Origin: Acidimicrobiaceae bacterium
Lineage (GTDB): Bacteria; Actinomycetota; Acidimicrobiia; Acidimicrobiales; RAAP-2
NCBI GenBank assembly: GCA_003132205.1
Contig: PKWY01000056.1
Coordinates: 39,337-103,336, forward strand
Reading direction: 5' to 3'
DNA length: 64,000 bases
In this document: positions 1-3,425 of the stretch, one piece after another
Layout: each line of letters opens with the position of its first letter
Position numbering within the stretch: position 1 is the stretch's first letter
Program-made: the position numbers and the translations under genes
The notes under the pieces: generated by a model
What the model saw: the letters and a program-made list of their open reading frames with translations, nothing else
Told to the model about the DNA's origin: nothing
Databases searched by the model: none

Positions 1-2
1 GG

Positions 3-578
3 GGCTTTTTAGGTCCGGGAGCGATAGAGCTCCAAATCACCCATTCGGAGGGCTTTGCTCTCTGCTGGGAAGGACACTCCCCCACCCCACCCGAATCGTT
101 CCTTGACCTCGGCAGTGGCGGAGGGCTACCAGGTCTTGTTCTTCTAGAGCGTTGGGGCTGCAGGGGAGTCTTCGTCGACTCCATGGAGAAGCGTACAAAC
201 TTCCTGCGCGAAGTACTGGAGTGGGCGGGGGCGCCATCCGGCGGAGAAGTGATCACCGGTCGGGCTGAGGAGCTCGCCAGGGATCCAGAGCTTGAGGCAT
301 CGTTTGACCTCGTTACCGCCCGATCATTTGGCCCACCCGCGGTTGTCGCTGAGTGTGCTGTCAGATTCTTAAAAGTTGGGGGAGTGTTGGTGGTTTCAGA
401 GCCCCCCGATGACACTGATCGGAGCCGATGGAACCACAAGGCCCTGACGAAGCTGGGACTGCACGATGATGGACGTATTCGTCACGGTGCGGCCTACCGT
501 GTTCTCGTGAAGGTTCGCCCAACACCAAAGGGCTTCCCCCGTGATGTGGGAACTCCGGGGAAGAAGCCATTGTTCTGA
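3..578 (+). CDS. rsmG: 16S rRNA m7G527 methyltransferase RsmG, 5' end cut by window edge
   Basis: SAM-dependent methyltransferase that modifies G527 of 16S rRNA. The frame is open from base 3, so the N-terminus lies outside the window. The first complete ATG in frame, at 183, falls inside the fold and is not the true start. The SAM-binding motif FLDLGSGGGLPGLVLLE is encoded at about 90-140, followed by the acidic VDSMEKR strand end and, later, the VTARSFG motif typical of RsmG. The stop TGA (576-578) directly abuts a parS site. The position just upstream of parA-parB is the usual one in bacteria. A decayed copy of the last 25 codons or so occurs at 1447-1521. Confidence 0.93.
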   Translation, partial: GFLGPGAIELQITHSEGFALCWEGHSPTPPESFLDLGSGGGLPGLVLLERWGCRGVFVDSMEKRTNFLREVLEWAGAPSGGEVITGRAEELARDPELEASFDLVTARSFGPPAVVAECAVRFLKVGGVLVVSEPPDDTDRSRWNHKALTKLGLHDDGRIRHGAAYRVLVKVRPTPKGFPRDVGTPGKKPLF

Positions 579-608
579 TGTTTCACGTGAAACATCAGAA
601 CAATGGCT
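565..608. repeat. perfect 44-bp palindrome centred on parS site 1
   Basis: Each base from 565 to 586 pairs with its mirror from 608 to 587, with no mismatch. The core is parS. The arms extend 14 bp beyond it on each side and include the last 14 bases of the rsmG reading frame. No T-tract follows. It may act as a terminator hairpin for rsmG, as an extended ParB site, or both. Confidence 0.9.
579..594. promoter_or_regulatory. parS site 1 (ParB-binding centromere)
   Basis: Perfect 16-mer TGTTTCACGTGAAACA, matching the bacterial parS consensus. It begins one base after the rsmG stop codon and is the centre of a perfect 44-bp palindrome at 565-608. Confidence 0.95.
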
Positions 609-770
609 AGGCGCTTAGCGGAGAATGCGGTCAAGCCCTTTCTTGACTGCCCAGGAGGGCGAATCTCGTGGGCACAGTTTCCGCATGGGGCTCCCGTATC
701 TCTGCAAAGAGGTGGCTTTGCCGCGAGTACTGTTGGCGCGAGCACCAAGAAGGAGGCTGGCATTTCCGCC

Positions 771-989
771 GTTTCAGTGAGCAACAGCGCGGTCGGACTT
801 CTTCTCATGTACGTTGTCGTGTTGCCTGGTCCGCCACTGTGGGCCATTGTTGACGAGGCGTCTTGATCATCTAACGCCTTCCGTGAGGCTGACAGCAACA
901 AAACTCTGTGGATTGTCCAGCCGTTCCTCTTCGGCATTCTGGCGGCGATTGTCAACTTCGTGGCCGTCCGAAGCTTAAGGCCGCCACTT
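771..989 (+). pseudogene. remnant of a small two-TM membrane protein (DUF2516-like) with one in-frame TGA
   Basis: Around a TGA at 864-866 the frame stays open on both sides and reads as one protein: LLLMYVVVLPGPPLWAIVDEAS, stop, SSNAFREADSNKTLWIVQPF, then a second hydrophobic stretch ending NFVAVRSLRP. The pattern of a TM helix, then D-x-A-S-x-x-x-x-AF-x-x-A, then K-T-x-W and a second TM helix ending V-x-VR resembles DUF2516 proteins as I remember them. The stop lies where that family often has Arg, so a single CGA to TGA change would explain it. Family assignment is tentative. A readthrough product or chance similarity are alternatives. Confidence 0.4.
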
Positions 990-1446
990 ATTAGTAGTCA
1001 CAAGCCGATCGATAGCTGTATGGATGCCCCCAATATATCCATCATGCTCACTCGGAGGAGAACTTCAGGGAGTCCAAGTTTGACCTTCTCAACTGAATGG
1101 CATCCCGCAAACAAGGGAGTGGATGGAGATCTTGGCGCCCAGTAGAAAGGACGCATCGTACTTGGGAACTGGCCGGACGAACGTGGAATCGACGCAAGTC
1201 TGGTCTGGGATTCTGGCATCAGAGCGGATCAGGTGGTCCCTCTGTGAGGTTCGGGCTCCTCTTGAGCGTGCAACGAAATCTGCTTAGGTTACGGGCGGGA
1301 ACTGAAGAAACCGCAACGACAACGTTCGGTTACACTTTCGTTGGCTGCGCTGAGCCACTTCAGTTGGTAATTAGGTTGATTGGAGCAAGTCTCCAAGAAT
1401 CGCCAGATGTGGATAGTCATATCCCATATTCTCGCGAAATTCTACT

Positions 1447-1521
1447 CAACACCAAAGGAGCCCATGCGATGCGGGAACTCCGGGGAGGAAGCCATTGTTC
1501 CGATGTTTCACGTGAAACATC
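1447..1521 (+). repeat. decayed duplicate of the rsmG 3' end with parS
   Basis: Bases 1473-1521 match 548-596 with two differences in 49. Further upstream the match CAACACCAAAG (1447-1457 versus 520-530) continues with a 2-base indel. The copied segment therefore covers the last codons of rsmG plus parS site 1, and the indel destroys the reading frame. Weaker resemblance may extend to about 1325. Confidence 0.75.
1504..1519. promoter_or_regulatory. parS site 2
   Basis: Perfect TGTTTCACGTGAAACA, inside the decayed duplicate of the rsmG tail. The flanking palindrome of site 1 is only partly kept here (CGATG on the left, CATCG on the right). Confidence 0.93.
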
Positions 1522-1549: not shown

Positions 1550-1565
1550 TGTTTCACGTGAAACA
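1550..1565. promoter_or_regulatory. parS site 3
   Basis: Perfect TGTTTCACGTGAAACA, 46 bp centre to centre from site 2. Confidence 0.93.
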
Positions 1566-1632: not shown

Positions 1633-1648
1633 TGTTTCACGTGAAACA
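1633..1648. promoter_or_regulatory. parS site 4
   Basis: Perfect TGTTTCACGTGAAACA, 83 bp centre to centre from site 3 and 88 bp before the parA start, so it probably overlaps or lies near the parA promoter. ParB could autoregulate the operon from it. Confidence 0.93.
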
Positions 1649-1735
1649 TTGGTACTTGACGGCCTATCAAAAACCGTGTTGAATGGCAGGGGTTCGACGC
1701 GGTGTCGGGATGTTCTTTAAGTTGGGAAGAGGCTC

Positions 1736-2509
1736 ATGGCGGATGCCAGCACAATGAGGGTTTTTGCTGTAGCCAACCAGAAGGGTGGAGTAGGCAAAAC
1801 TACCACCACTACGTCCCTCGGTGCCGCGTTGGCCGAGATGGGCAAGCGTGTCTTGGTCGTGGACTTGGATCCTCAAGGGAATGCCACAACCGGACTGGGT
1901 GTAGATGGTCGACAGTTCGAAAAGTCTGTGTATGACGTATTGCTGAATGACACGCCGATGGTTGACATTGTCGAGCCAACTGGCTTCAACAACCTCTTTG
2001 TAGCTCCCGCAACCCTTGATCTGGCGGGCGTGGAGCAGGAGTTGACCGCAGTGATCTCGCGGGAACTTCGCCTTAAGAAGGCTCTGGCCTCGGTGGAGGG
2101 TGACTTTGACTATGTATTCATCGACTGTCCACCGTCTCTTGGCCTGATTACAATAAATGCTTTCGCAGCAGCCACAGATATTCTGGTCCCAGTCCAGACT
2201 GAGTTCTACGCCCTTGAGGGTTTGACACAGCTTCAGCGGATTGTTGATCTCGTGCAGAAGAATCTGAACCCCACGCTGCGCATTTCGAAGGTTGTCCTTA
2301 CCATGTACGATTCTCGCATCACACTTTCGCAAGACGTGGCGAGAGAGGTTCGTCGTCACTTTGAGAACGAACTCTGTAATACGGTGATTCCCCGTACGGT
2401 ACGCCTGGCCGAGGCCCCTTCGTTCGGCCAGCCGATTACTGTGTTCGATCCATCATCCAAGGGTGCCCAGGCATACCGAGCTCTAGCAGAGGAGATCAAC
2501 AATGGCTAG
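1736..2509 (+). CDS. parA: chromosome-partitioning ATPase ParA (Soj)
   Basis: Deviant Walker-type ATPase that binds the nucleoid and moves ParB-parS complexes to separate replicated origins. The 257-aa protein has the deviant Walker A motif KGGVGKTTTT near residues 16-25, the DPQGNATTGLG box after the following strand, and the Walker B region VFIDCPPSLGLITINA near residue 125. ATG 1736 follows an AAGAGG ribosome site. ParA overlaps parB by 8 bases, so the two are co-translated. Four parS sites lie just upstream. Length and motifs are standard for the chromosomal Soj type. Confidence 0.97.
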   Translation: MADASTMRVFAVANQKGGVGKTTTTTSLGAALAEMGKRVLVVDLDPQGNATTGLGVDGRQFEKSVYDVLLNDTPMVDIVEPTGFNNLFVAPATLDLAGVEQELTAVISRELRLKKALASVEGDFDYVFIDCPPSLGLITINAFAAATDILVPVQTEFYALEGLTQLQRIVDLVQKNLNPTLRISKVVLTMYDSRITLSQDVAREVRRHFENELCNTVIPRTVRLAEAPSFGQPITVFDPSSKGAQAYRALAEEINNG

Positions 2510-3425
2510 GAAACCAGGTTTGGGAAAGGGGCTTGGAGCCCTGATCCCAGAAGGAACTGTTGAGGTTGAACCGGTGGTCGAGGCTTCTGTCGAAGGGCCG
2601 TTACGCCGAGTTCCGGTGACCGCGATTCGCCCCAATCCATTCCAGCCCAGAAAGTCCTTCAGCGACGAGAGCCTTCAGACATTGGCGTCGTCAGTTCGCG
2701 AATTGGGCGTGCTGCAGCCGATCATCGTACGTCCAATAGAGGGCAAGGAAGGCGAGTACGAGTTGATCGCAGGCGAGCGACGATGGCGGGCTGCCGTGTT
2801 GGCCGGCCTCGAGATGGTTCCGGTGCTCGTGCAGGATGACGTGAATGACCGACTGTCGCTCGAGCAGGCCGTCGTGGAAAATCTTCACCGAGTTGATCTC
2901 CATCCACTGGAGGAAGCAGCTGCCTATCAGCAACTGATTGGTGAATTCGACCTCACGCACGAGCAAGTTGCCCAGCGCGTCGGAAAGAGCCGTGCCAACG
3001 TCACCAACACGCTACGGCTCCTCCAACTGGGGGAGACCGCTCAAGCCGCACTCGCAACCGGTCAGATCACCGCAGGCCATGCGAGGTCGCTCCTGGCCAT
3101 CAGTGATCCGAGCGCGCAGGCCACCATGGTTGCGAGGATCACCAAGAACGAACTCTCCGTTCGCGCGACGGAGGAGGCCGTCAAGGCCTTCCTTGAACCA
3201 AAGCCAGTGAGCGGCGCGGAGGTTGTCTCCAGAGGCGTGACGGAGAAGCCACGGCTACGACCCGTGCCAGATGCAAGCGTTGCAGAACTAGAGCAATTAC
3301 TTGAAGATTATCTCGACACCAGAGTGCACGTCGATCTCAAGGGTCGCAATGGCCGCATAATCATTGACTTCGCCGACCTTGATGACCTCGAGCGGATCTA
3401 TATCGCCATCTCACAGGCGAAGTAA
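2502..3425 (+). CDS. parB: chromosome-partitioning protein ParB (Spo0J), CTP-dependent parS-binding clamp
   Basis: Binds parS, loads as a sliding CTP-bound clamp and stimulates ParA. The 307-aa protein starts with the basic [12 protein letters not shown] tail that contacts ParA. The CTP-binding GERRWRAA box is near residues 87-94, followed by the [17 protein letters not shown] segment, the helix-turn-helix [20 protein letters not shown] near residue 150, and a C-terminal dimerisation region. Its ATG lies inside the 3' end of parA (8-base overlap). The parS sites at 579-1648 are its expected targets. Confidence 0.97.

Follow-up and report, generated by a model that had tools for sequence, protein, structure and literature searches.

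The parS cluster upstream of parA in an Acidimicrobiaceae genome raises the question of how a bacterial centromere cluster gains a new site. Why parS sites cluster has been posed as an open question, and new parS sites have been described as restricted to a zone near the original one (PMC7333895). The stretch of 64,000 nt analysed here, called the window in the following, belongs to genome G000 and begins inside rsmG. In it, one of four parS sites is preceded by DNA resembling the 3′ end of rsmG, a segment which the initial annotation had taken for a decayed gene copy carrying its own parS.

Layout of the rsmG-parA region

The features of the region are the following; parS positions with a minus sign are given relative to parA throughout, and G074 is the genome of a sister species.

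1..578, plus strand: intact 3′ part of rsmG (copy 1), the gene start lying before the window (Pfam GidB, E 6.3e-06, 26.1 bits, slightly below the cut-off of 27 for the partial frame; gene order from L034)
565..608: perfect 44-bp palindrome centred on parS 1 (inverted-repeat search, arm 22)
579..594: parS 1, fused to the rsmG stop codon (exact 16-mer; 16/16 in G074)
609..1423: spacer, not recognisably rsmG, fast-evolving (73-80% identity to G074; no significant jag-rsmG match)
798..1004, plus strand: gene remnant with an in-frame stop, originally coding for a small membrane protein (tblastn to the intact G062 protein)
1424..1503, plus strand: decayed copy of the rsmG 3′ end (copy 2; parS-free similarity to the rsmG end; 81% identity to G074)
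1504..1519: parS 2, joined to the decayed rsmG copy (exact 16-mer; 16/16 in G074)
1550..1565: parS 3 (exact 16-mer; 15/16 in G074)
1633..1648: parS 4, adjoining a TTGAC box before parA (exact 16-mer; 16/16 in G074)
1736..2509, plus strand: parA (Pfam AAA_31, E 3.5e-62)
2502..3425, plus strand: parB (Pfam ParB_N and HTH_ParB)

All four parS sites, which start at 579, 1504, 1550 and 1633, match the 16-bp palindromic motif TGTTTCACGTGAAACA exactly and lie at most 1.2 kb from parA, the downstream three at -232, -186 and -103; elsewhere in the draft genome (2.89 Mb, completeness 92.87) there is no parS, even when one mismatch is allowed. A ParB with ParB_N and HTH domains is encoded beside these predicted sites. 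L034 provides the full rsmG reading and the gene order, with two N immediately preceding base 1 of the window. In 71/83 genomes the parS closest to parA is followed by a TTGAC box at a distance of up to 20 nt, mostly at 7 nt (window 1633-1660), as if ParB bound at this site could regulate parAB. The 13-mer AACAATGGCTAGG is present both behind parS 1 (599-611) and at the parB start (2498-2510), which may be chance.

A decayed copy of the rsmG 3′ end precedes parS 2

The repeat reported in the initial annotation, 1473-1521 against 548-596 with two differences, was recovered exactly, with 47/49 bases identical, and the repeat search returned it as family D1 with 90% identity over 61 nt. A fuller alignment of 1424-1521 with the rsmG end plus parS gives 82% over 95 nt (E 1.4e-22). 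The similarity extends beyond the parS 16-mer and covers the coding end of rsmG as had been claimed, so that the pairwise alignment leaves a reading as duplication standing: with parS excluded, 502-578 aligns to 1429-1503 with a score of 72, the best of 1000 mononucleotide shuffles reaching 30, and a parS-masked blastn search of the rsmG-parA interval with the rsmG end finds 78% over 74 nt (E 7.7e-13), with no match to the reversed interval of G000. The segment 548-578 agrees with 1473-1503 in 29/31 bases; the next-best place on either strand of the 64 kb reaches 19/31. The recognisable copy begins at about 1422-1429, further upstream than the start at 1447 given originally. It is frame-breaking, as had been noted, because it comprises 75 nt compared with 77 nt in the intact rsmG end and is thus 2 nt short; moreover, the rsmG stop codon TGA reads CGA. 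Similarity to rsmG outside parS, loss of coding and, as described below, drift like that of the spacer mark it as a pseudogene fragment. We conclude that 1424-1503 is probably what remains, without coding capacity, of a local duplication in which rsmG was copied over at least its last 80-100 nt together with the stop-fused parS.

The spacer holds a dead membrane-protein gene

The initial annotation had further proposed a tandem duplication, and of this claim the duplicated rsmG 3′ end with its own parS stands, whereas a simple 925-nt unit does not. In such a unit the spacer should repeat the DNA preceding it, and it does not. The spacer (609-1423) was rejected as decayed rsmG or jag, since 15/200 dinucleotide shuffles reach its score against jag-rsmG; for its reverse complement and for the G074 spacer, the corresponding counts are 87/200 and 42/200. 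As the spacer is not rsmG-like and holds a dead membrane-protein gene, the 925 nt are not a clean tandem unit. The remnant at 798-1004 is 48% identical to an intact protein of G062 (tblastn E 2.9e-16 in a small local database), whose gene lies directly behind rsmG and parS (L164, L221) on a contig that ends shortly after. Part of the DUF2516 model is matched by this G062 protein with 33.2 bits (cut-off 30.6); its match to PLDc_N, with 21.1 bits, stays below the cut-off of 23.3.

A gene remnant between two direct repeats, with the break at a gene 3′ end, is also what would be expected if an rsmG 3′ end, parS and the membrane-protein gene had been carried by a small circle or other element that recombined into the rsmG end and left repeats flanking its cargo, and frames related to the cargo gene do occur elsewhere in G074 (L163, with a stop) and G025 (L165). 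However, the spacer measures only 0.8 kb, no Pfam match, to an integrase or other mobility gene or otherwise, was obtained in the three spacer frames tried (603-863, 1097-1558 and 494-952 on the minus strand), and the rsmG-end repeats of G007 and G089 lie at offsets of 161 and 150 nt, leaving no room for a cargo gene. We therefore consider such an insertion unlikely and keep to local duplication.

The sister genome separates drift of the gene part from retention of parS

When the spacer DNA (597-1425) was searched against 99 genomes of the genus (E ≤0.01), matches were found in nine, namely its own genome, G074 with a full-length match of 74% identity, and seven with short pieces only. The comparison with relatives thus places the full interval in a single other genome and, like the pairwise alignment, does not refute the duplication. 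In G074 (L082), a separate assembly, the layout is the same as in the window. Identity between both is 91-94% for rsmG and 93.8% for parA, compared with 73-80% for the spacer and 81% for the rsmG remnant, while the four parS sites agree in 16, 16, 15 and 16 of 16 bases, i.e., 63/64 (parS versus spacer, Fisher p 1.3e-6, the sites having been chosen as exact in G000). Hence, the rsmG remnant drifts like the spacer while parS is kept, which bears out the earlier claim that all but the parS site decayed.

These data bear on two further explanations. The rsmG-like flank might be an old functional element, retained because it is helpful to parS, and it would fit this that the window's copy retains 29/31 bases beside parS, a higher share than in the DNA upstream of them. 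Yet the drift of the flank between G000 and G074 at the rate of the spacer nearly refutes this reading, and other parS sites are without such a flank, so we regard it as highly improbable. The repeat could also stem from an assembly artefact or a strain mixture, as the genomes are draft MAGs, contigs break at this region in G017 and G062, and a copy in G089 is 100% identical. Against this argue the same layout in a second, separate assembly with a spacer diverged by 20-27%, and the difference of about 18-22% between the two rsmG-end copies of the window; an artefact here is exceedingly improbable.

A comparison of parS and flanks between tandem copies, in which 11/480 parS positions and 158/1610 flank positions differ over 30 pairs, was set aside. 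It is biased, as a pair was counted only when a parS could be recognised in both of its members; moreover, in seven pairs differences were confined to parS, the flank being weak or not scorable. The retention argument therefore rests on G000 and G074 instead.

Which end is the original

The rsmG-parA region was gathered from 85 genomes of the genus, draft MAGs in which several contigs terminate within it. In 70 of these, a complete rsmG end and parA are located on one contig; left out were G070, whose parA start was misplaced, G017, G035 and G067, where contigs end, and the genomes in which no rsmG match was obtained upstream of parA. In 43/70 loci the rsmG stop and the first parS are fused, lying no more than 2 nt apart. 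Allowing up to two mismatches, the loci carry two (1 locus), three (23), four (14), five (15), six (11), seven (4) or eight (2) parS sites. In 20/70 loci, designated compact, rsmG ends at most 250 nt from parA, and 19 of them have three parS sites and one has two. The compact loci of G018, G022 and G036 have parS at about -235, -188 and -102, and many others share both outer positions with the window and have a middle site near -140. A parS at -220 to -246 is kept in 28/50 expanded loci.

The remnant in the window occupies the position at which rsmG ends in the compact relatives. The intact rsmG end and its parS are therefore the ones that moved away, and “copy” and “original” are, in terms of position, the other way round: the downstream segment is a duplicate, as the initial annotation had it, but by position it stands where compact relatives end their rsmG. 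We infer that the compact layout is the ancestral state. That the parS near -232 generally keeps a visible rsmG flank in expanded loci was rejected, since only G000, G007 (at -850) and G074 stand out; these are also the three with more than 0.6 identity among 112 non-first parS sites compared, the rsmG remnant not being visible at most others.

Copies of the rsmG end recur in relatives

Copies of the rsmG end are present in further genomes of the genus. A general rsmG profile run over 31 intergenic regions matched only G017 and G000 at E <0.5, and therefore own-genome comparison and a clade profile were used. Comparing each rsmG end with its own rsmG-parA interval, with parS masked (E ≤1e-5), gave copies in 7/70 complete loci (G000, G007, G084, G089, G090, G099 and G108), and reversed intervals gave 0/70 even at E 0.01; at this threshold G074 has no match. 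The clade profile, built from seven related rsmG ends with parS masked and run on those of 84 supplied genomes that had more than 60 nt, matched, all at E ≤5e-5, G017, G000, G089, G062 (twice) and G074; the next forward match had E 0.088 and the best reversed one E 3.1. It adds G017, G062 and G074 to the seven loci, and the proposal that the window displays a route by which new centromere copies arise is thereby strengthened.

A parS closely follows the copy in G000, G074, G017, G007 and G062, and in G108 it follows after 79 nt, near the expected register. No full parS follows the copies in G089 and G090; in G099 the flanks of a parS further downstream (-492) repeat those of other sites, and in G084 no link between copy and parS was seen. 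In G089 (L204), 131 nt of the rsmG 3′ end are repeated with 100% identity 150 nt downstream, with a break inside parS, possibly a very recent event. A long rsmG pseudogene is present in G017, where it runs up to parS -232; in the tree it clusters with the G017 rsmG (support 99/99). Slight differences among the G017 contigs in the intact rsmG copy may point to a mixture of strains or to a third copy. G062 has two remnants within a 192-nt repeat, one before parS -220 and one before parS -412. At a contig end of the same genome (L168), two parS sites have inverted flanks, an inverted duplication or an assembly fold-back that may be an artefact. In G072 (L176) rsmG matches in two pieces (query residues 1-74 and 100-131) within one open frame of 184 aa, possibly an internal deletion.

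Each copy is closest to the rsmG of its own genome or of its sister. A single old duplication shared by G000, G017 and G062 is for this reason not favoured, the margin in G062 being small; gene conversion between copies could give the same picture. Counting sisters once, we estimate about five to seven rsmG-end events.

Repeated parS units and extended palindromes

Duplication around parS is not restricted to the rsmG end. A masked self-comparison of 79 loci (E <1e-5) found direct repeats in 20/79, with parS pairs in register within the repeated units in 14/79; the reversed control gave any match in 3/79, and a cross-genome control, which includes true orthologues, gave any match in 26/474 pairs and in-register matches in 14/474. 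The clearest arrays are those of G079 (184-nt unit, 3.1 copies, 96% matches), G087 (167-nt unit, 3.1 copies, 85%) and G075 (118-nt unit, 2.4 copies by TRF), the last with eight parS in the locus and with units four periods apart 94% alike (L094).

Palindrome arms of at least 13 nt surround 9/220 distinct exact parS compared with 0.8 expected by shuffling, although self-pairing of a site was possible in the shuffles and tandem copies do not provide independent sites. The longest is the 44-bp palindrome at 565-608, which extends into the rsmG coding end. This excess hints at template switching at parS. The same palindrome was rejected as a terminator, there being no T run after it.

A proposed route for the growth of parS clusters

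The parS clusters of this Acidimicrobiaceae genus are best read as growing through local duplications, some of which include the rsmG end. Unequal or slipped replication would copy a short stretch including this end, possibly helped by the palindrome. The upstream copy would keep the gene whole and the downstream copy would drift, with its predicted parS presumably still binding ParB and being kept by selection, so that the cluster would gain one site, from three to four. In the lineage of the window, a small membrane-protein gene would have come to lie between the copies and then died.

In a wider and more tentative reading, the cluster resembles a small satellite centromere: new sites would arise through repeated local duplication, at times including the rsmG end, would spread as tandem units (89-230 nt where clearest) and would decay in between, and cluster size would reflect a balance of birth and death readable from gene-end fossils. 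The parS palindrome may promote these events, because one break lies inside parS and extended palindromes exceed chance. While the single case is modest, the genus-wide pattern gives it weight. It makes a mutational route visible in natural genomes, in which a parS sits on a gene end, both are copied, the gene part drifts and the site stays, and it thus suggests, in concrete terms, how bacterial centromere clusters can grow. With two to eight sites in each of the 70 complete loci, a single genus allows one to measure how centromere sites are born, kept and lost. Among the titles and beginnings of abstracts listed we found no account of parS clusters growing by duplication, which is weak evidence as most subscription papers lay outside the search.

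Comparison with known systems

Eukaryotic satellite centromeres consist of head-to-tail units that carry a binding site. The arrays of G079, G087 and G075 resemble them only in how they would work; parS loci show no sign of drive or general homogenisation, and they have two to eight sites, each of them a defined ParB motif. Closer is the tandem duplication with pseudogene decay, with which the window shares a partial gene copy that lies beside the intact gene and drifts without coding. It differs in that the decayed copy keeps one short predicted functional site and that the spacer lies outside any repeated unit. Finally, the window has the parts of a chromosomal ParABS system with an origin-proximal parS cluster, i.e., parA, parB and several exact parS near rsmG and jag. 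A mycobacterial example, described in PMC2346475, has the par genes in a jag-gidB-parA-parB region with two putative parS. What sets the loci of this genus apart from such systems is that their sequence itself records how the cluster grew by local duplication.
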